Part shown: one piece after another, positions 4,476 to 13,526 of the stretch
Position numbering within the stretch: position 1 is the first letter of the stretch
Layout of the letters: each line of letters begins with the position of its first letter
Source: Cyclobacteriaceae bacterium
GTDB lineage: Bacteria > Bacteroidota > Bacteroidia > Cytophagales > Cyclobacteriaceae
Reading direction: 5' to 3'
DNA length: 64,000 nucleotides
Assembly: GCA_019638285.1 (NCBI GenBank)
Contig: JAHBUB010000002.1
Coordinates: forward strand, 124,001 to 188,000
Program-made: the position numbers and the translations under genes
Notes under the pieces: model-generated
The model's input: the letters and a program-made list of their open reading frames with translations, nothing else
The model's database searches: none
What the model was told of the DNA's origin: nothing

Positions 4476-5470
4476 TTTATTTTTTCTAACTCTCCTTTGA
4501 GGTAAGTGATTACTTCCACGGGATCGGGGTCCACCTTGTTTTCTATTGCCAGGTAATACGAAATCCAATCGGTGAGATGGATGAGGTGATAATATTGTTC
4601 CAACAAAGAAGCACCCTCTGCTACGATGTCAATTATGGGATTAGATTTTTTCTCAAAAATATCCCTGCATAGCTCCATTCGTTTTTCCACTCTTACGTGG
4701 TCATGATCGGTGTAGAGATAGATTACCTGACATTGTGATAACACCTGACCAGGATTTTCCCAACCGACAATTTCGTTGTGGTTCATTTCCGGAAATGTAT
4801 TTACATGTGCAAAGTGCTTCGCGTTTTCATTAAGTTGATTTTGAAACCTCACTGCCATTGCTTCGAGTCTCCCATCGCAATAAATAATGGGAAATTTTCC
4901 GTGTATTTTTTTGGCGATCAGTTCGGCTTGCGCCTGAATGGCCTTTTCTCCTCTGTCAAGATATTCTACTGCGTTCTCAGTTTCTTTGATAAAAGCGCCA
5001 CCGATCAGGTTGGTATGGTAAAGGGCATAAAGAAGTGATATCATGGCATAACCCAACATAGCACGCGGGCTGCTCGACCCCGCAGGCATTTGAATGTAAT
5101 GCAGGTTGTATTCTTTGGCTACTTCCAACACTTTACCGCCCGAAGTAATACAAATAATGTGCGCTCTCTTAAGTAACGCTTTTTGAATGGCAGAGAGCGT
5201 TTCTTCTGTGTCCCCACTGTACGAGCAGGCAATAAAGAGTGTATGTGGTCCGACAAATTGAGGGATATTGTACCCTTTGTTCACCATCATAGGGATAGGA
5301 ATTCGGCCGAAGGTCAGGGATTCTATCAGGTTGGCGCCAATACCCGATCCACCCATGCCGGACACAAGAATATTCCGAATGTCACTTCCGGGCCTTACTA
5401 AATCTACTGCTTCTCCTATTCGCAGCGCATCGGTAAGTTGACGTGTAAAACCTTCAATCAATTTTTTCAT
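4472..5470 (-). CDS. Bifunctional phosphoglucose/phosphomannose isomerase (SIS domain)
   Basis: The enzyme interconverts fructose 6-phosphate with glucose 6-phosphate and mannose 6-phosphate. The 332-residue protein has two SIS subdomains. The first carries GMGGSGIGANL at about 39-49 and SYSGDTEETL at about 83-92, which bind the sugar phosphate. The C-terminal half has the PGI/PMI signature LNENAKHFAHVNTFPEMNHN, with the conserved Glu and His residues expected for ring opening and isomerisation. It is the first gene of the operon isomerase-lipB-GH113-small gene and is driven by a good promoter at 5493-5523. SIS regulators lack this C-terminal region, so the enzymatic assignment is fairly secure. 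Confidence 0.88.
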   Translation of the reverse strand: MKKLIEGFTRQLTDALRIGEAVDLVRPGSDIRNILVSGMGGSGIGANLIESLTFGRIPIPMMVNKGYNIPQFVGPHTLFIACSYSGDTEETLSAIQKALLKRAHIICITSGGKVLEVAKEYNLHYIQMPAGSSSPRAMLGYAMISLLYALYHTNLIGGAFIKETENAVEYLDRGEKAIQAQAELIAKKIHGKFPIIYCDGRLEAMAVRFQNQLNENAKHFAHVNTFPEMNHNEIVGWENPGQVLSQCQVIYLYTDHDHVRVEKRMELCRDIFEKKSNPIIDIVAEGASLLEQYYHLIHLTDWISYYLAIENKVDPDPVEVITYLKGELEKIK

Positions 5471-5492
5471 TTTCTCTATTAACTTAAGGGTT

Positions 5493-5523
5493 CAAAGGTA
5501 CTTGCATGACGGATAAAATCAAA
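5493..5523 (-). promoter_or_regulatory. Bacteroidota-type promoter of the PGI/PMI-lipB operon
   Basis: Read leftward, TTTG (5523-5520) is followed after 19 bases by TACCTTTG (5500-5493), matching the Bacteroidota consensus for both boxes and their spacing. The isomerase start codon is 22 bases downstream. The -33 box lies inside the first codons of the divergent yraN gene. Confidence 0.7.
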
Positions 5524-5859
5524 AGAGGATTTGAAGGGGAAGGCTTGGCAATATCATTCTTGGAAAACAAGGGCTATCAATTAGTTGTGAGAAATTACAG
5601 GTATAAGCGTTCGGAAATTGATTTGATTGTGGAGAAAGATAACTGGCTCGTTTTTGTGGAGGTGAAAACCAGAAGCTCGGTTGCATTTGGTTATCCTGAA
5701 GAATTTGTGGACGAAAAAAAAGCGAATAAAATAATGGAGGGGGCCGAAAATTATATTATTGAAAACGACTGGAAAGGAAACGTGCGCTATGATGTGGTGG
5801 CAATAACTTTACAGGGAGATGAACCGGAGATTGTTCACTTTGAAGATGCTTTTTACTGA
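5506..5859 (+). CDS. YraN family protein (UPF0102, endonuclease-like fold)
   Basis: This is a 117-residue soluble protein of the YraN/UPF0102 family. The conserved core is visible: GFEGEGLAISFLENKGY (about 8-24), NYRYKRSEIDLIVEKD (about 29-44) and FVEVKTRSS (about 49-57). The Asp, Glu and ExK residues match the metal site of Holliday-junction-resolvase-like and restriction-like nucleases. The family's biochemical role is not settled. It is divergent from the isomerase operon with only 35 bases between. Its stop overlaps by 7 bases the end of the convergent YwqK-like gene. Confidence 0.9.
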   Translation: MTDKIKRGFEGEGLAISFLENKGYQLVVRNYRYKRSEIDLIVEKDNWLVFVEVKTRSSVAFGYPEEFVDEKKANKIMEGAENYIIENDWKGNVRYDVVAITLQGDEPEIVHFEDAFY

Positions 5860-6680
5860 CCTTTGCGATTGGAGTAAACTTCTTTTCCCTTATCATTCCA
5901 CTCACTGCGTACAAACGGGGTGAGTTGACGATCAAACGGATCCTGCGGAAAGACAATTATCTTTTTCCTTCTGCCATTCGGATAGTTTTCTATCCAATCG
6001 CCTACTTTATTGTCCCAGTGATATTCCCCCATTACAGCAATAGTTCCATTTTCATGGAACTGATAGTAGTAACCTTCACGTTCTCCAAATTCTACCGGGA
6101 TGATTTCCTTTATTTTAGTGCGCTCAGCTGGATCGTAGTATACAATGAGTGATTCTTTGGGCCATCCTTTATAATACTTCTCCTTGTCTACCAAAAGATT
6201 TTCTCTGTTGTACTGCATCCATCGCCCATGCTTGGTGCCTTTGTAGAAGATGCCTTCTTCCAGGAGGAGGTCACCTTGCATTTTTTTGTATGGCCCATGT
6301 AGGAGCACGCCTTTGCTTGGATCAAACGTGTTGGTTTTTCTTATTTCTCTTCGTGTAAAGTCATACCAGTAGATGTCTCTCACAAAACGGTTGGGTTTGT
6401 CGGGGGTTTTCAAATAATAAAACAGTTCAATGGTCACTTTGTCACCATACCCTTTGCGGGTAAACCCCTTCTTGGTTTTGATTCCGTAAAAGACCTTTTT
6501 CTTTGGCTTTTTCTTTTTGGTTACGATGGGCTCATCGATTTCCTCATCCAACTCCAGCAACTTAAAGGGCTTATCGGTATCAAAAGTAAATTGCCCCTCC
6601 ACAATGTGCGCTTCCTTACCAGGCTGAGCCAAAGCAAGGAAGGGGAGAAAAAGAATACACGTAAAAAGCAGAAATTTCAT
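5853..6680 (-). CDS. Secreted YwqK/MORN-like repeat protein
   Basis: This 275-residue protein has a signal peptide (MKFLLFTCILFLPFLALAQ, about 1-19) and a lysine-rich stretch (KKKKPKKK, about 55-62). The C-terminal half carries MORN/YwqK-type repeats such as LLHGPYKKMQGDLLLEEGIF, KHGRWMQYNRENLL, REGYYYQFHENG and KVGDWIENYPNGRRK. The family is often labelled antitoxin YwqK after a Bacillus gene, but nothing here indicates a toxin partner. A periplasmic or surface location is likely. Its upstream region begins with direct repeat copy A, which probably supplies its promoter. Confidence 0.75.
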   Translation of the reverse strand: MKFLLFTCILFLPFLALAQPGKEAHIVEGQFTFDTDKPFKLLELDEEIDEPIVTKKKKPKKKVFYGIKTKKGFTRKGYGDKVTIELFYYLKTPDKPNRFVRDIYWYDFTRREIRKTNTFDPSKGVLLHGPYKKMQGDLLLEEGIFYKGTKHGRWMQYNRENLLVDKEKYYKGWPKESLIVYYDPAERTKIKEIIPVEFGEREGYYYQFHENGTIAVMGEYHWDNKVGDWIENYPNGRRKKIIVFPQDPFDRQLTPFVRSEWNDKGKEVYSNRKGQ

Positions 6681-6708
6681 GGATTACCCTGTCTTTGCGA
6701 TTGGATAA

Positions 6709-6776
6709 CGAAGTTAGCGAAAAAATAGTCTATCACCTTTCAACAAAAAAGGGCCTGCGTTTTGGCAAGCCCTTTT
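6709..6776 (-). repeat. Direct repeat copy A (68 bp, terminator plus likely promoter) bounding the peptide cassette
   Basis: The 68 bases are identical to 9652-9719 except at two positions (66 of 68). The same orientation makes this a direct repeat 2.94 kb apart. It contains a hairpin (6747-6758 with 6765-6776, one mismatch) followed leftward by a run of T, so it can terminate the peptide genes that end at 6799. It also has an A/T-rich stretch reading TATTTTTTC leftward that resembles the -7 promoter box for the YwqK-like gene. Confidence 0.85.
6747..6776 (-). terminator. Intrinsic terminator after the peptide genes (bidirectional)
   Basis: AAAAGGGCCTGC pairs with GCAAGCCCTTTT across a six-base loop, with one mismatch. 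Poly-T follows on both strands (six T leftward, one extra rightward). It lies 22 bases beyond the stop of the first peptide gene. Confidence 0.7.
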
Positions 6777-6798
6777 TAGCTATTAGAACTGGAGAGGA

Positions 6799-6918
6799 TT
6801 AACGAACACCAACATACCCCAAAACGACACCAATTGCAACCGAGAATAAGAAAAGTGCAAGCCAACCAACGATTCCTCCTCTAGTTGCGTTCATTTCGAT
6901 TTCATTCATTTTTTTCAT
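6799..6918 (-). CDS. Double-glycine leader peptide 1 (bacteriocin-like precursor, 39 aa)
   Basis: A 39-codon gene reads MKKMNEIEMNATRGG followed by a 24-residue hydrophobic core. The leader ends in Gly-Gly, the cleavage site of C39 peptidases. The core begins IVGWLALFLF and ends GVVLGYVGVR; it has a GxxxG motif (GVVLG) and a C-terminal arginine and could form one membrane helix. It shares the leader pattern MKK-x5-M-x-x-T-(K/R)-GG and the exact 15+24 architecture with peptide 2. The ATG at 6918 was chosen by analogy with peptide 2; an ATG two codons upstream is also possible. A C39 peptidase is encoded 2.1 kb away. Two-peptide bacteriocin or signalling function is inference. It could alternatively be a small membrane subunit with a chance GG. 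Confidence 0.7.
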   Translation of the reverse strand: MKKMNEIEMNATRGGIVGWLALFLFSVAIGVVLGYVGVR

Positions 6919-6941
6919 AATCATTTATTTTAGTTAACACT

Positions 6942-7061
6942 TTATAACATCACACCGATTTGGATTCCGATCCAAAGACCGGCCAAAACAATTGCTATCC
7001 CTAAGAGAGCCCAAAAACCACCCTTGGTGGTTCTCATGACATTTTGTGATATTTTTTTCAT
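6942..7061 (-). CDS. Double-glycine leader peptide 2 (bacteriocin-like precursor, 39 aa)
   Basis: A 39-codon gene reads MKKISQNVMRTTKGG followed by a 24-residue core. The core starts FWALLGIAIV and ends GLWIGIQIGVML, containing two consecutive GxxxG motifs (G-L-W-I-G-I-Q-I-G). GxxxG motifs mediate helix pairing in class IIb two-peptide bacteriocins. The leader resembles that of peptide 1, which lies 23 bases downstream on the same strand, so the two are probably cotranscribed. The start codon is only 22 bases from that of the divergent membrane protein gene. Maturation by the C39 peptidase at 9050-9583 is inferred from the Gly-Gly motif. No immunity gene is obvious. Confidence 0.72.
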   Translation of the reverse strand: MKKISQNVMRTTKGGFWALLGIAIVLAGLWIGIQIGVML

Positions 7062-7069
7062 TAGTTTTG
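7062..7069 (+). promoter_or_regulatory. Candidate -7 box for the cassette outer-membrane-type gene
   Basis: TAGTTTTG matches TAnnTTTG and lies 14 bases before the ATG at 7084. A TTTG at 7043-7046 is 15 bases upstream, shorter than usual. If real, the promoter overlaps the first codons of peptide gene 2 and the transcript leader would be very short. Confidence 0.3.
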
Positions 7070-7083
7070 ATTTTGGTTGGATT

Positions 7084-9057
7084 ATGCCTATGAAGCTACA
7101 ATTTCCCTATTTCAAATCAATAATTATTTCGTTATTTTTTTTAGGAATATTTATTTTAACAGGGTTTAAGGCAAATTCCCAGTCAATCATCCAAGGGAAA
7201 ATTATTGAGAACGATACGGGATTGCCACTCCCCTATGCAAATGTATATTTGAAGGCTAATCAGAATATTGGAACCATAAGCAATTTGGAAGGCCGATTTT
7301 TACTTACGGTTTCAAAAATTTCTAGGACAGATTCATTAGTTATTAGCTATGTGGGATACACTACGATGGTAATAGCTGCTATGGATCTTCGTACCAAATT
7401 CAATGGAATAATAGGATTGCAAGAAGAAAAAAGAATACTGGAAAATGTGGTAATCCATTCTGAGGATACATTGAGGAAATTTTTAACACAGGTTTTTAAT
7501 CGAATAGGCAACAATTATCCGCAGGTAGGTATACTAACTACTGGATTTTATAGGGAAACAAATTGGCTGGAAAATGAAAAAAAGTTCATTTATTTTTCAG
7601 AATCCATTATTGAATTTTATAAACCTCCTTATAATCAAAGAAAGTTTGGTCCAGCAAGGATAGTTGAAGGGGCTAAAACTGAACTTAAGGACAGGCGTAA
7701 TTATTCAAATGTTTACTTTTATGCAGGCATCTATTCTCCTCAGAGATTTGATTTTGTAAAAGAGCGGATGGAGTTTATCAATCCAGTCCATTTTGATAAA
7801 TATTCTTATTCTGTTGAGGCTGAAGTTCAAAACAACAAGAATCGAATAATTATTATAACCTTTAAACCCGAAATAAAAAATGCCTTGTATGAGGGCAAAC
7901 TTTTTATCGACTCAGGTTCCAAAGCTTATATTAAGGCCGAATACAAACTCACACCATTTGGCGTTAAGAAGGAAAATTTTTTGAATACAATTGATTTAAG
8001 TTTCCAAAACAGAAACTATATAGTTCACTATAAAGAACAAAATGGTACATGGTACCTAGACTATGTTATTCAGGTGGCACTAATCAACAATAAAAAATTT
8101 GATAATAGAATTCGATATACGAACGAATTTGTCTCAACAAATAACGAAGAAGTAGACAATAATCCCATATCAGATAAGGATGCAATACCATTCCAGGCGT
8201 TCTATTCTACGCAGGAAGATAAGTTTAACAATGACTTTTGGAATAAGGAAGAAATCATTCCGCGAACTAAGGATTTACAGAAAACTGTAGATCTTCTTTT
8301 CAAAGATTCCGCTATGGTTAAAAAAAATGCCAAGAGTCTCAATGAAGTTGGGAACAATCGTTTGTTGAAATTTATTACCAGACTATCAACAAATGTTTCA
8401 ATCGCAGATGTTCCTTTGTATGTTAATAATGGTAATTACGAGCTAACGTATCCAAATTACTTTTCAATAAGTAAAAACGTAGAGCATAAGAGTAGCATTG
8501 TGGCAATTGGCTTTGATTTCAAATATTATCCAAAACCAAATAATGGCATTGTCTTGAAATATTATGGAAACATTACGAGTGGGGTAAAGTTAAACACTAT
8601 AAATTTATTGTATGAGAAAGACTTTAGACTGGCAGGACGAAAAAAACCAATTTATATTCAACCTTCAATTGGTATCTATTTTCAAAATTTATACCTGAAC
8701 CTGGGTGAATCCAATATCACCTCGGATTTTCAAATTGGCAGAAAACATTTCTATGACAGAGTCAATGTTGGAGTTGGGGAAGATAGATTTGGAATTATTG
8801 GCGCGGTGGAACTTGTATATAAGTTTAATTCCAGATTGGCCCTTATGACAAAAGCGACATCTTCGATAGCCGCAACAGGTAAGTGCAAAGTTTTAATTGG
8901 TGAAGTTCCAAAATCACTGATTGAAAAGTCAGCCAAAATGAACTTACAACAAGTTACGCTAACAAATAACAATAATTCTCAATCTGCGTCCCCGATAGGA
9001 ACCCTAAGGTTTATCCCAATAATTGAAATTGGTTTAAGGATTGGGTTAATCAAATAA
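7084..9057 (+). CDS. Carboxypeptidase-regulatory-like domain outer membrane protein in the peptide cassette
   Basis: This is a roughly 657-residue secreted protein. The start is ATG 7084 (or 7090), because the hydrophobic signal peptide (LQFPYFKSIIISLFFLGIFI...NSQS) begins there; codons up to 7024 would run into the divergent peptide gene. The mature N-terminus has a CarboxypepD_reg-like beta-sandwich (IIQGKIIENDTGLPLPYANV, then GTISNLEGRF and LVISYVGY), common on Bacteroidota outer-membrane proteins. The C-terminal half has many beta-strand-like segments (KYYPKPNNGIVLKYYGN, PIYIQPSIGIYFQNLYLNLG, LRFIPIIEIGLRIGLIK) suggesting a barrel, as in DUF5686-like proteins. No TonB-dependent receptor plug is evident. 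Composition is A+T-rich relative to neighbours. A role as receptor, exporter or immunity partner is speculative. Confidence 0.65.
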   Translation: MPMKLQFPYFKSIIISLFFLGIFILTGFKANSQSIIQGKIIENDTGLPLPYANVYLKANQNIGTISNLEGRFLLTVSKISRTDSLVISYVGYTTMVIAAMDLRTKFNGIIGLQEEKRILENVVIHSEDTLRKFLTQVFNRIGNNYPQVGILTTGFYRETNWLENEKKFIYFSESIIEFYKPPYNQRKFGPARIVEGAKTELKDRRNYSNVYFYAGIYSPQRFDFVKERMEFINPVHFDKYSYSVEAEVQNNKNRIIIITFKPEIKNALYEGKLFIDSGSKAYIKAEYKLTPFGVKKENFLNTIDLSFQNRNYIVHYKEQNGTWYLDYVIQVALINNKKFDNRIRYTNEFVSTNNEEVDNNPISDKDAIPFQAFYSTQEDKFNNDFWNKEEIIPRTKDLQKTVDLLFKDSAMVKKNAKSLNEVGNNRLLKFITRLSTNVSIADVPLYVNNGNYELTYPNYFSISKNVEHKSSIVAIGFDFKYYPKPNNGIVLKYYGNITSGVKLNTINLLYEKDFRLAGRKKPIYIQPSIGIYFQNLYLNLGESNITSDFQIGRKHFYDRVNVGVGEDRFGIIGAVELVYKFNSRLALMTKATSSIAATGKCKVLIGEVPKSLIEKSAKMNLQQVTLTNNNNSQSASPIGTLRFIPIIEIGLRIGLIK

Positions 9058-9583
9058 AGGTTTTTATAATTAAGTAAAATCCAGCTACAATTAAAATTAA
9101 GGATAGAGTGGTTCTTTTATTTAAAATAAATGAGACTACGAGAGATGTATTATTACGACTAGGAAATTTTTTGCCGATTGCGGGCGTAGAAGGAACTAAG
9201 ATTTTCCCAGACCAAATTTTCAAAAAATCCACCTCGCTTAACGGTGTAATCTTACCAGTAGAAGGGTTCATACAATAGGCATTACTAGTATCGACAACGT
9301 GTATCGCAACAAAGTGAGGAAAGAATTTTTTAATTCGTACATGGGCAATAAAAGGTGACCTCAATTGACTTAATGATTTGAAATCTGACACATAGCCAAT
9401 AGCCTCTATATTGAATTTCTCTAATAACAGGGACAAATCCATAAAACTATAGAAACCGATCTTTAGCGGATTGAATAATTTTAATTCAGATAACTCTACT
9501 TCAATGTTATAATGATGGAGAATTGCTTTTACGCAGGCAATACCACAATCTGAAATATCTGTTTGTTTGACATTAGGCATCAT
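9050..9583 (-). CDS. Stand-alone C39-family peptidase with C-terminal membrane anchor, no ABC transporter
   Basis: C39 peptidases remove double-glycine leaders and are normally fused to ABC exporters. Here a 177-residue protein carries the peptidase domain at about 1-135: QTDISDCGIAC with catalytic Cys13, FFPHFVAIHVV with catalytic His90, and CMNPSTGK where the usual Asp of the DP motif is Asn106. The H-to-N spacing of 16 matches the H-to-D spacing in the family. One hydrophobic segment (about 160-176, LSLILIVAGFYLIIKTF) ends the protein, so transporter and ATPase domains are absent. Asn can replace Asp in papain-like triads, so activity is plausible. The gene overlaps the convergent membrane-protein gene by 8 bases. 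Its upstream region holds repeat copy B. Confidence 0.8.
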   Translation of the reverse strand: MMPNVKQTDISDCGIACVKAILHHYNIEVELSELKLFNPLKIGFYSFMDLSLLLEKFNIEAIGYVSDFKSLSQLRSPFIAHVRIKKFFPHFVAIHVVDTSNAYCMNPSTGKITPLSEVDFLKIWSGKILVPSTPAIGKKFPSRNNTSLVVSFILNKRTTLSLILIVAGFYLIIKTFI

Positions 9584-9651
9584 TTATTTGACATGGATAT
9601 GGGTACCGTAAATTGCCGTCAATAAAATTCACGTGCTATTAGATTAAATAT

Positions 9652-9719
9652 CGAAGTTAGCGAAAAAATATTCTATCACCTTTCAACAAAAAAGGGCCTG
9701 CGTTTTAGCAAGCCCTTTT
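9652..9719 (-). repeat. Direct repeat copy B (68 bp) bounding the peptide cassette next to htpG
   Basis: This is the same 68 bases as 6709-6776 with two substitutions. It lies 18 bases beyond the htpG stop and 68 bases before the C39 peptidase start, so it can both terminate htpG and provide the promoter region of the peptidase gene. In copy A the same module separates the peptide genes from the YwqK-like gene. This arrangement suggests that htpG and the YwqK-like gene were once adjacent and the 2.9 kb between the copies was inserted. Confidence 0.85.
9690..9719 (-). terminator. Intrinsic terminator of htpG
   Basis: AAAAGGGCTTGC and GCAGGCCCTTTT pair around a TAAAAC loop (one mismatch), followed leftward by a T run. 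It is 18 bases past the htpG stop. Confidence 0.75.
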
Positions 9720-9737
9720 AATACATTTTTGTTTAGA

Positions 9738-11639
9738 CTATGAAACCAACTCTACACTTCTCTTAATAAAGCTCGTCAAGTCAGCGCCTGTGAGCATATT
9801 CTGCGAAAGCAATGCCAAATCATACGCTTGCTTGGCCAACTTTATTTTTTGTTCTTCCGTCTCGGCCTTCAATACTTTCTGAATCACATTGTGATTGGCA
9901 TTGACAGCCACATTGTAACTGTCAGGCATACCTCCCATAAAGGACATACCTCCACCACCGGTCTTGGCCATGTCTTTCATTCTCCTCATCCACTCGCTCA
10001 TGGTTACCGTTACAGGCAGGTCAGCAGGAGACATTGATTCAACCGTTAATGTCATACTTTGATTCTTAATGGCCTTCTCAAAGATTCCTTTGATTTGTTC
10101 CTCTTCTTCTTTGTTAAGAACGCTTTCAATCTTTTCATCTTTGGCGATCAACTTGTCGATGGTATCACTATCCACCCTCTTGAGCTGCGTGTTTTCAAGC
10201 TTCTGCTCAAGGTTGCTAATGTAATGGCTGTCCAAAACACCATCCATAAGTAACACATCGTATGATTTATCCTTCGCCATCTGAATGTAGGTGTCTTGTT
10301 TGCCCGCGTCAGAAGTATATAAGTAAATGGTTTGCTTGTCTTTGTCAGTTTGGTTGTCTTTTACTTTCTCTTTGTATTCATCAAAAGTGAAGTAAGCTCC
10401 ATCTACGTTTTTCAGTAATGAAAAATCCTTTGCTTTTTCATAAAACTTTTCATCACTGATCATTCCGTATTTCACGAAAATATTGATGTCATCCCACTTT
10501 TTCTCAAAGGCAGGACGATCTTTTTTGTACATGTCTCCCAACTTGTCGGCCACTTTTTTGGTAATGTGCTGACTGATCTTTTTAACACTCGAGTCAGATT
10601 GCAGGTAACTTCTGGAAACGTTCAGTGGAATATCTGGTGAATCTAACACCCCGTGTAGAAGCATCAGAAAATCAGGAACCACTTCTTTCACTTCATCAGT
10701 AATAAATACCTGACGGGAATAAAGCTGGATTTTGTTTTTTTGAAGCTCAAAATCATTTTTCACCTTCGGGAAGTAGAGCACTCCTGTTAGATTAAATGGA
10801 TAGTCTACATTCAGGTGAATCCAAAAAAGGGGATCTTCCGAAAATGGATATAGCTCTTTATAAAAATCCAGATAATCTTTATCCTTCAAATCTTTAGGAG
10901 ACTTGGCCCACAAAGGTTCGGGGTTATTGATAATGCGATCAACCTTTACCGATTTGTACTTTGGCTTTCCTTCCTTGTCCTCTCCATCCGGAATACTTTC
11001 TTCCTTGGTGCCGAATTTTATTTCAACAGGTAGGAACTTGCAATACTTTTCTAGGATTCCCTTTAATCTGTATTCGTCCAGAAACTCCTCGGAGTCTTTG
11101 TTGATGTGTAGAATGATATCGGTTCCTCTTTCCTTTTTCTTAGCGGGTTCAAGAGAAAACTCTGTAGACCCATCGCACGTCCACTTGGCTGCCTCGTCCT
11201 CTCCCACAGCGTAAGATCTGGAAATGATTTCCACATTGTCGGCCACCATGAAAGACGAATAAAACCCAAGACCAAACTTTCCAATGATGTCTTTAGCGTC
11301 TCCTTTGTCTTTGAATTTTTCCACAAACTCAGTGGCTCCGGAAAAGGCAATCTGGTTAATATATTTTTTTATTTCTTCTGCCGTCATTCCAATTCCGCGG
11401 TCGCTTACGGTGATGGTTTTTTTCTTTTTATCGAAACTTACCTCTACGCGGGTTTCTCCAAGTTCATCCTTGAACTCGCCCATTGCGGCAAGCTTTTTAA
11501 TTTTTTGCGTGGCGTCTACCGCGTTGCTTACCAGTTCCCTTAGAAAGATCTCGTGATCTGAGTAGAGAAATTTTTTGATGATGGGAAAGATATTTTCGGT
11601 ATGGATGGAAATTGAACCCTTTTCAGCAACAGTTGCCAT
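9738..11639 (-). CDS. htpG: Molecular chaperone HtpG (Hsp90)
   Basis: This is a cytoplasmic ATP-dependent chaperone of 633 residues, full length for bacterial Hsp90. The N-terminal GHKL ATPase domain shows FLRELVSNAVDA (about 33-44), SDRGIGMT (about 78-85) and GKFGLGFYSSFMVAD (about 120-134). The middle domain holds the conserved SRSYLQSD with its catalytic Arg, and the C-terminal dimerisation domain follows. A short glycine/methionine-rich stretch (KTGGGGMSFMGGMP) lies near residues 562-575. About 290 bases upstream, up to the RNase gene terminator, should contain its own promoter, but no clear consensus was found there. Confidence 0.97.
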   Translation of the reverse strand: MATVAEKGSISIHTENIFPIIKKFLYSDHEIFLRELVSNAVDATQKIKKLAAMGEFKDELGETRVEVSFDKKKKTITVSDRGIGMTAEEIKKYINQIAFSGATEFVEKFKDKGDAKDIIGKFGLGFYSSFMVADNVEIISRSYAVGEDEAAKWTCDGSTEFSLEPAKKKERGTDIILHINKDSEEFLDEYRLKGILEKYCKFLPVEIKFGTKEESIPDGEDKEGKPKYKSVKVDRIINNPEPLWAKSPKDLKDKDYLDFYKELYPFSEDPLFWIHLNVDYPFNLTGVLYFPKVKNDFELQKNKIQLYSRQVFITDEVKEVVPDFLMLLHGVLDSPDIPLNVSRSYLQSDSSVKKISQHITKKVADKLGDMYKKDRPAFEKKWDDINIFVKYGMISDEKFYEKAKDFSLLKNVDGAYFTFDEYKEKVKDNQTDKDKQTIYLYTSDAGKQDTYIQMAKDKSYDVLLMDGVLDSHYISNLEQKLENTQLKRVDSDTIDKLIAKDEKIESVLNKEEEEQIKGIFEKAIKNQSMTLTVESMSPADLPVTVTMSEWMRRMKDMAKTGGGGMSFMGGMPDSYNVAVNANHNVIQKVLKAETEEQKIKLAKQAYDLALLSQNMLTGADLTSFIKRSVELVS

Positions 11640-11870
11640 ATTCGTTGATTTGGTTTGATTAATAATTTACAGGGGAAACCTTTCAAAAGCCGTTCCATCA
11701 AGTAAAAGGTGACAGGATGGCAGGGAAGGGAGTTGTGGAATAATTAGGTGTTGTTTTGTGAGGACACGAAACAAAGGAGGGTCTGTGTTGAAATGGGTAT
11801 GTGTATTCTTAAGGATGACTTATTTTCCGATTTCACTTTTGTGGTCGGAGTTTAAAGAATGGATAGCGCA

Positions 11871-11904
11871 AAAAAAAACCGCAACACTTCTCATGCTGCG
11901 GTTC
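11871..11904 (-). terminator. Intrinsic terminator of the RNase E/G gene
   Basis: Read leftward, AACCGCA pairs with TGCGGTT around a GC-containing loop and is followed by eight T. It lies 27 bases past the RNase stop. It separates that gene from htpG downstream. Confidence 0.8.
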
Positions 11905-11930
11905 TAATTTTTAATTAGTCATTTAGACTT

Positions 11931-13526
11931 TTATTCTTCTGTTTGTGCTGGCGTAGCCGGTTGTCCATGCACTCCAGTATCAATCTCATCTCCGTCTTTT
12001 GTTAAGAATTTGAATTCTGTGATTGCCATGGAAGAATCCCTCACCAGTGTTATCCATTTCTTGTATTTAAAGAAAAGCTTTACGCGTTTTGAGATAATTC
12101 CAGTTGTATAGTAGGCATACACGAAGGGGTGAAGGGCCAGTGCCAAACCGGTTTCATTTTGTTTTATCAACAGATGATCCAGGTGTTGCTCTATCTCATC
12201 GGTGATCAGGATGCTTGCTGTAATGCTTCCGGTGCCATTGCAAGTGGGGCATACTTCCTTGGTGGTAATATCCATCTGTGGACGAACACGCTCACGGGTG
12301 ATTTGCATCAATCCAAACTTAGAAAGTGGAAGTACGGTATGCTTGGCACGATCGGCACCAGCCATTTCGTCCTTCATGGTTTTATGAATGAGGCGCTTGT
12401 TTTCAGCACTTCTCATATCAATAAAATCGACTACAATGATTCCTCCCATATCGCGCAGGCGCAATTGCCGCGCTACTTCTTTCGCTGCTTCTAAGTTTAC
12501 AGATAAGGCGGTGGTCTCCTGATTTTCTTCGCGATTGGATTTGTTGCCACTATTGACATCCACCACATGAAGTGCTTCAGTGTGCTCAATGATCAGGTAT
12601 CCACCCCCTTTTAAACTTACCGTTTGCCCGAAGGCAGACTTGATCTGTTTTTCTACGTTGAAATGCTCAAATATTTTGGCCTTGCCCGTGTACAGCTTTA
12701 CTATTTTTTCTTTGTCCGGAGCAATGGTCCTTATATAAGCACGGGTCTCTTCGTAAATCTTTTTGTCGTCTACCTGGATATTATCAAAAGATTCGTTGAG
12801 TACATCGCGTAGAATGGAAGAGGTTTTGCTTATTTCTCCAATTACTTTGTCGCGTGGATTGGCGGTTACTAACCTTTTGGTCCCTTCATCCCAGGTCTTG
12901 GTCAGGTTGCGCAGGTCCTTGTCCAGTTCAGCCACTTCTTTGCCCTCGGCAACGGTGCGTATGATGACCCCGAAATTTTCAGGTTTGATGGATTGGATAA
13001 GACGAAGAAGGCGTTTGCGTTCTTCACTGCTGGTGATCTTTTTAGAGACACTTACCGTGTTGCTAAAAGGAACCAGCACCAGGTAGCGGCCTGGTATGGA
13101 TAACTCGCACGAAAGTCGCGGCCCTTTGGTGGATATGGGTTCTTTTACCACCTGTACCGGAATGACCTGACCTTTGGAAAGTTGCTGGGATACTTTCCCA
13201 TGCTTGTCAATGTCTTTTTCCAGTTGGAGTTTATCCAACCGGCCTCCGGTAATCTTCTTTGCTCGGACTAGTTTGGTGTATTTTTGAAGTGAATTAAACT
13301 GTGCGCCAAGATCAAGATAGTGAAGGAATGCATCCTTTTCGTACCCAATGTCAATAAACGCAGCGTTAAGTCCCTGAACTACCTTTTTTACAGTGCCCAG
13401 ATAAATATCACCAACTAAAAACTTGCCTCCTTCCTCTTCGTGATGGAATTCTGCAAGATTCTTATCCTTGAGAAGTGCTATGCGACATCCGTTCTGAGTT
13501 GCGCTAATAATTAGTTCGTTACTCAA
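11931..13526 (-). CDS. rng: Ribonuclease E/G family endoribonuclease
   Basis: The product processes rRNA precursors and degrades mRNA. The 531-residue protein has an N-terminal S1-like region (LVGDIYLGTVKKVVQGLNAAFIDIG, split here as GTVKKVV and AAFIDIG, about 43-62). It also has the RNase E/G catalytic core with HVVDVNSG at about 322-329, the acidic metal ligands in GGIIVVDFIDM at about 362-372, and a Zn-link motif CPTCNGTG at about 427-434. Length fits the RNase G-type proteins of Bacteroidota, without the long E. coli RNase E scaffold tail. A 51-base gap separates it from the small basic gene upstream. Confidence 0.93.
   Translation of the reverse strand: MSNELIISATQNGCRIALLKDKNLAEFHHEEEGGKFLVGDIYLGTVKKVVQGLNAAFIDIGYEKDAFLHYLDLGAQFNSLQKYTKLVRAKKITGGRLDKLQLEKDIDKHGKVSQQLSKGQVIPVQVVKEPISTKGPRLSCELSIPGRYLVLVPFSNTVSVSKKITSSEERKRLLRLIQSIKPENFGVIIRTVAEGKEVAELDKDLRNLTKTWDEGTKRLVTANPRDKVIGEISKTSSILRDVLNESFDNIQVDDKKIYEETRAYIRTIAPDKEKIVKLYTGKAKIFEHFNVEKQIKSAFGQTVSLKGGGYLIIEHTEALHVVDVNSGNKSNREENQETTALSVNLEAAKEVARQLRLRDMGGIIVVDFIDMRSAENKRLIHKTMKDEMAGADRAKHTVLPLSKFGLMQITRERVRPQMDITTKEVCPTCNGTGSITASILITDEIEQHLDHLLIKQNETGLALALHPFVYAYYTTGIISKRVKLFFKYKKWITLVRDSSMAITEFKFLTKDGDEIDTGVHGQPATPAQTEE

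Follow-up and report, generated by a model that had tools for sequence, protein, structure and literature searches.

A candidate transporter-free maturation cassette for double-glycine peptides in two congeneric Cyclobacteriaceae

C39 peptidases that act on double-glycine (GG) leaders are normally part of an exporter, both functions being joined in the peptidase-containing ATP-binding cassette (ABC) transporter (PCAT). Class IIb bacteriocins have cationic mature peptides and a dedicated ABC transporter. According to PMC6671954, bacteroidetocin loci encode a membrane protein alongside the PCAT and in most cases also a thiol oxidoreductase, and the mature peptides of the two main bacteroidetocins are 42 residues long with four cysteines. 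PMC5557850 describes FapD of the Fap amyloid system as a periplasmic C39 protein with a Sec signal and no ABC parts, and a review of leader proteases (PMC10885120) covers C39 within PCATs, together with excised domains as tools. Here we describe a four-gene block in a 64,000-nucleotide stretch (the window) of a Cyclobacteriaceae genome (GCA_019638285.1, hereafter G000; 3.98 Mb, 99.39% complete). As set out in the initial annotation and confirmed by gene calls and domain matches, two small GG-leader peptides, a large outer-membrane-type protein and a C39 peptidase without a transporter are encoded between htpG and a YwqK-like gene. The same block is present at another locus in a congener, G031. 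We interpret it as a compact cassette, acquired by horizontal transfer, that matures GG peptides without a peptidase-ABC transporter, and put the probability of this reading at about 0.5.

The C39 protein of the window matched Peptidase_C39 (Pfam, expectation value (E) 5.9e-23). Its matches in the PDB (best E 2.2e-14) included the PCAT1-type structure 4ry2 and ComA (8hf4), with alignments reaching chain residues 173-181. Its similarity is to the N-terminal piece of a PCAT and extends roughly as far as the presumed first membrane span. Like PCATs, it is accompanied by GG leaders and has Gln, Cys and His as catalytic residues; unlike them, it lacks any further membrane domain and the nucleotide-binding domain. 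The 177 residues end in a single membrane helix: residues 159-177 form the strongest hydrophobic stretch, none at the N terminus being stronger, and this region is a confident helix within an otherwise poor single-sequence model. Basic residues precede the helix, which suggests that the peptidase domain is cytosolic. Among viral protein families (PHROGs) the C39 protein was assigned to an ABC transporter family, and peptide A matched at E 0.02 or weaker only.

Residues Q7, C13 and H90 are retained and the third catalytic residue is N106. In 72 C39 domains, obtained from 99 frames of the fetched loci once duplicates and short spans had been dropped, Gln, Cys and His were retained throughout (72/72), whereas the third residue was Asp in 71, G031 included, and Asn in the window alone. 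Asn serves as a catalytic residue in papain, so Asn106 leaves activity of the window enzyme possible. In the tree of these domains the window and G031 proteins were split from all the others by a branch supported at 100/100; their position among the remaining domains is unsure because branches are long, the window's own measuring 1.49 versus 0.33 for G031.

The sister block was found in a single-sequence search of 58 relatives, where G031 alone had a close C39 match (E 8.7e-48, again 177 residues). Its large protein matched at E 4.1e-131, the next best in the same 58 genomes being 9.3e-50. The C39 and large genes are adjacent in G031, and reading the locus revealed one peptide gene, versus two in the window. 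The block runs C39 (+), large gene (-), peptide (+), with relative order and orientations as in the window, and in both genomes the C39 and large genes are convergent with stops overlapping by 8 bp. The co-location of peptide and stand-alone C39 genes, for which the initial annotation had suggested a search, was thereby recovered in a second species, together with an outer-membrane-type gene. Identities between the two blocks are 47% for C39, 38% for the large protein and 53% for the G031 peptide against peptide A; synonymous change is saturated, so that no ratio of nonsynonymous to synonymous change could be obtained.

The site in G031 differs from that in the window. The G031 block sits after asd, has a G+C content of 32.9% (41.7% over the fetched locus as a whole), and is flanked by no direct repeats longer than 19 nt; behind the peptide gene lies an inverted repeat with a stretch of T residues (by eye). 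The htpG/YwqK-gene gap of G031 is 64 bp. In congener asd loci, a lemA-type gene lies behind asd within the fetched flank in 16 of 21, at less than 400 bp in 14, G000 included; these distances are rough, the lemA query having extra N-terminal residues. Adjoining the G031 cassette is a stretch (L049:10016-10860) that on visual inspection looks photolyase-like and is split among several frames, and G008 has after asd a 430-residue frame with a similar start.

Elsewhere the block is rare. A C39 profile built from the window/G031 pair, and therefore bound to match both, was applied to overlapping draws of genomes: 390 from the order, 395 from the phylum and 390 from the family (up to 8 candidates scored per genome, cut-offs 1e-20, 1e-24 and 1e-27). 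G000 and, where drawn, G031 scored about 1e-102 and the next match 1.1e-29; the remaining matches listed were frames of 587-847 residues, the length of a PCAT, save one of 181 residues from a broken PCAT in G207. A peptide profile built from peptides A and B and the G031 peptide and run over 62 congeners returned only these three sources below 1e-15, followed by matches of E 6.6e-4 and weaker. Peptides of this kind with no co-occurring C39 gene, named at the outset as evidence against a cassette, were not seen in these congeners, strong matches being limited to the two cassettes. The block was present in 2 of 62 congeners, and none of the other genomes in the searched samples had it. Peptidase_C39 itself matched 55 of the 62 at E 0.01, 48 of them above the cut-off. 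In a named-genome collection, a scan that picks up close relatives only, one of 55 pattern matches was a relative, 29% identical (L048, Mucilaginibacter), and it lies far from the pair in the tree on a very long branch. Phage cargo was rejected, as none of 49 pattern matches in viral contigs was related. So was plasmid cargo: C39 matches in 258 plasmid records were all below 60% identity, those with a named feature among the 20 records listed were peptide cleavage/export ABC transporters, and the large protein had 4 matches, with coverage of at most 57%.

Peptide A has the leader MIMKKMNEIEMNATRGG of 17 residues (15 from an internal Met) and peptide B the leader MKKISQNVMRTTKGG of 15 residues, each followed by a mature part of 24 residues with a GxxxG motif; the G031 peptide has a 15-residue leader and a mature part of 23, also with GxxxG. 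The three leaders share Met or Ile at -12, Met at -7 and Thr at -4, then Gly-Gly. The mature parts are one membrane span long, with net charges of about +1, 0 and 0. Peptides A and B had no family match better than E 0.01 (Pfam, NCBIfam). Over the 64 kb of the window the leader rule gave two matches, A in its strict form and B in the loose form only, and the G031 peptide passed the strict form. Since 20 control stretches (360 kb) gave no strict match and 4 loose ones in 4 stretches, the match of peptide A clearly exceeds chance and that of B, taken alone, does not; B is supported because of its place beside A. Such leaders also accompany C39 proteins in the genus: in 20 PCAT loci, drawn from 67 C39 places of at least 39 bits in congeners and chosen for contig room, the strict rule found 12 peptides in 9 loci (0/20 in controls) and the loose rule 16 in 10. 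With two G818 contigs added, which had been fetched for their peptide match and PCAT, the strict count was 14 in 11 of 22. The cassette resembles bacteroidetocin loci (PMC6671954) in its 15-residue GG leaders (A 17 or 15, B 15, G031 15, against a described range of 15-16) and in a peptide gene near a C39-containing gene. It differs in having no PCAT and in peptides below the two-cysteine minimum (0, 0 and 1 in the three mature parts).

The large protein starts with a signal peptide (by eye), followed by CarbopepD_reg_2 (E 4.4e-12), a middle domain and a C-terminal region for which hydrophobic alternation alone makes a beta-barrel probable. It was aligned with its G031 counterpart and 24 of 27 sequence relatives (L037, L046 and L047 being left out), and CarbopepD_reg_2 was present in 26 of 26, a count that selection by similarity partly builds in. 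The first ~400 residues are common to the relatives; the C-terminal part, among six proteins compared, is common to the cassette pair only. A LolA-like middle domain was considered and given no weight, the signal being at noise level: the best Pfam E was 0.11, in 2 of 26 members, and PDB matches at the same place (3bk5, E 0.12; 4z48, E 0.34) stood in a list that also held a tektin at E 0.043. Elsewhere, in L053 of G041 and other members of the alignment, the CarboxypepD_reg front module is joined to a beta-lactamase-type (2/26) or an M1-peptidase-type (3/26) domain.

Genes of the CarboxypepD_reg family also occur beside other GG peptides. Those of about 400 residues adjoin GG peptide genes in G010 (L200) and on both G818 contigs (L177, L178). 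G818 carries the best peptide-profile match outside the cassettes (E 6.6e-4; of the weaker matches, those of G818 and G821 were inspected), a GG peptide lying between two CarboxypepD_reg genes, of which Pfam calls one and the family profile the other, with an adjoining gene that is HlyD-type by eye. A GG peptide with a CarboxypepD_reg gene near PCAT or HlyD-type genes may be a pairing of the genus. Because some congener GG-leader genes near PCAT or HlyD-type genes adjoin CarboxypepD_reg genes, an intercellular role of the cassette peptides is favoured by analogy. Near PCATs, a strict two-sequence start found CarboxypepD_reg genes at 2 of 20 loci versus 0 of 20 controls, and six seeds (one of them, L200, derived from the tested set), restricted to 300-700 residues, at 3 of 20 versus 0 of 20.

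The cassette is G+C-poor (33.6%, against 41.0% for the window, 40.7% for htpG and 42.0% for the YwqK-like gene) and its third-position G+C is about 0.30 versus 0.47-0.48. Only 3 of 612 cassette-sized stretches of the window were equally poor, every one overlapping the cassette. The foreign origin first suggested from two short samples thus holds up: the block was probably acquired horizontally. The YwqK-like protein was searched in 58 genomes (57 matched) and 30 loci were returned, of which 16 had htpG inside the flank that was fetched and so a readable junction; the other 14, including the window's own, were uninformative. In 14 of the 16 the gap was 53-152 bp. The empty site anticipated by the initial annotation does exist, for example in G017 (YwqK-like protein 84% identical), and none of the 16 junctions had the repeat pair without the cassette. 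In G026, the nearest relative by this protein (90%), and in G012 the junction spans about 1.1 and 1.0 kb and is occupied by other genes. Because relatives show an empty site or other genes, the cassette seems to be an incomer, at a junction where gene content apparently turns over. By eye, the junction genes are a MarR-type regulator and an NTF2-like secreted protein in G026 (L056) and a barrel-type membrane protein in G012 (L079).

Table 1. Features of the cassette and its flanks (positions in the window; aa, amino acids).
Feature	Position	Strand	Remarks
YwqK-like gene	5853-6680	-	cassette flank
repeat, left copy	6699..6776	.	just downstream of the peptide genes; hairpin and stretch before the YwqK-like gene
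peptide A	6799..6924	-	41 aa, Gly-Gly leader
peptide B	6942..7061	-	39 aa, Gly-Gly leader
large outer-membrane-type gene	ATG 7084 or 7090 to 9057	+	about 655 aa
C39 peptidase	9050..9583	-	177 aa, Peptidase_C39
repeat, right copy	9642..9719	.	just downstream of htpG
htpG	9738-11639	-	cassette flank

With the YwqK-like gene on one side and htpG on the other, the four genes are enclosed by direct repeats (Table 1). These had been described as 68 bp long; the repeats are real, but they extend over 78 nt at 94% identity, the 68-bp core containing 2 mismatches. The whole G000 genome holds these two copies and no third. By position, each copy is the htpG/YwqK-gene intergenic region, which is thus present twice, and on visual inspection the left copy resembles the stretch that precedes the G026 YwqK-like gene. 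Both copies fold into a terminator-like hairpin (-20.7 and -19.0 kcal/mol), which a consensus terminator scan did not pick up. Promoter-like sites numbered 18 versus 14.6 +/- 4.0 in shuffles and terminator-like sites 3 versus 2.8; a TAnnTTTG box at 7062, ahead of the large gene, is suggestive only. No RNA element of Rfam matched at the gathering score in positions 5000-13000. No recombinase or transposase was found among the four genes between the repeats (Pfam, NCBIfam), and on this ground, with only two genomic copies, a dispersed repeat or transposon was rejected.

Neither block contains a transporter gene. In G000, a Peptidase_C39 family search found no PCAT: the matches were the cassette protein and, at 22 bits, a 245-residue protein of a genus-wide kind. 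This borderline protein of ~240-250 residues (G000:C16:35580-35792) recurs across many congeners. ABC_membrane proteins of 590-610 residues number five in G000 and five in G031, so none stands out as a partner.

Our model is that the C-terminal helix would anchor the C39 protein in the inner membrane, leaving the peptidase on the cytosolic side, where it would, as homology implies, cut the leaders after Gly-Gly. The freed hydrophobic helices of 23-24 residues would enter a membrane and oligomerise there, and the divergent surface protein would handle, receive or protect against the mature peptides. We put forward a fuller version only tentatively: a captured, tail-anchored PCAT peptidase might convert leader-bound, span-length peptides into their membrane-active form, the CarboxypepD_reg/barrel protein being a dedicated outer-membrane receiver or guard, in a block that moves between sites as one.

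The chief rival, which we consider unlikely, is that the block is the remnant of a PCAT peptide locus that has lost its transporter, the C39 stub, peptides and accessory gene being decaying passengers. The C39 protein does end about where the presumed first PCAT span would end; N106 and the long branch of the window copy fit decay, and broken PCATs occur in the genus. In the broken PCATs of G207 (L088), G028 (L010) and G820 (L253), however, the ABC half still lies beside the C39 stub, unlike in the cassette. Other truncated C39 frames in congeners are 344-557 residues long; a short one in G814 (162 residues) lies far from the window/G031 pair in the tree on a long branch and has no rule-passing GG peptide within 15 kb. 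Two species keep, at two sites, a C39 of 177 residues whose ends agree, as does the 8-bp overlap, and the frames are intact at 38-47% amino-acid identity. Decay is disfavoured because the same intact short form is found in two species.

Rather improbable is a peptide that acts on its producer, in which the leader would keep the helix harmless until intracellular C39 cleavage frees a pore or stress peptide for self-killing or dormancy. The lack of a transporter in the cassette and of a detected PCAT in G000, the C-terminal span of the protease and the span length of the peptides would suit such a switch. Against it, the four cassette proteins matched no PADLOC defence model at E 0.1, a sensor domain was not found, and the outer-membrane-type partner has no obvious fit.

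Less probable still is the two-peptide (class IIb) bacteriocin of the initial annotation, with the surface protein as immunity factor. The window does have two adjacent GG-leader peptides, each with GxxxG, as in the class, B's leader by the loose rule only. As the G031 block has one peptide, an obligatory two-peptide bacteriocin is unlikely, and mature parts of 23-24 nearly uncharged residues in a locus with no dedicated transporter, in a genome where no PCAT was found, also depart from the class; this claim was not sustained. Very improbable is a Fap- or pilus-like scheme in which an ABC-free C39 licenses peptide export through the outer-membrane protein: FapD is likewise ABC-free in a system with an outer-membrane protein, and weak similarity of the C39 protein to the FapD (E 4.1e-7) and FilB (6.8e-5) models lies far below their cut-offs, but FapD is made periplasmic by a Sec signal (PMC5557850) and serves an amyloid system, whereas the cassette peptides are span-length and the window C39 has its hydrophobic stretch at the C terminus, with no stronger one at the N terminus.

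Several observations weigh against the maturation cassette itself. Only two examples of the block are at hand. The window C39, with its Asn and longer branch, may be weakening. A further C39 fragment lies at a contig end in G031, which leaves room for a PCAT in that genome. Full-length relatives of the large protein (L050, L051, L054) lie in fetched stretches devoid of a C39 gene, and the single-sequence search produced no C39 match whatever in G047 or G049. The link between CarboxypepD_reg genes and PCATs is weak, the excess being small and dependent on the size limit: 4 of 20 PCAT loci versus 2 of 20 controls when the limit is lifted, and 5 of 20 versus 4 of 20 with a broader profile. Single-sequence structure predictions were poor (mean predicted local distance difference test scores of 29.6 and 43.8).

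No such cassette was reported among the matches listed from the open-licence literature, a body lacking most subscription journals, nor in passages of PMC10885120 and PMC10352776. If the maturation cassette is real, leader removal would be separable from export, as shown by a cytosol-facing, exporter-free C39 peptidase with span-length substrates. The block would also be a small, testable system and possibly a handy leader protease, and it could point to a function for part of the CarboxypepD_reg protein family, which is large and functionally unassigned.

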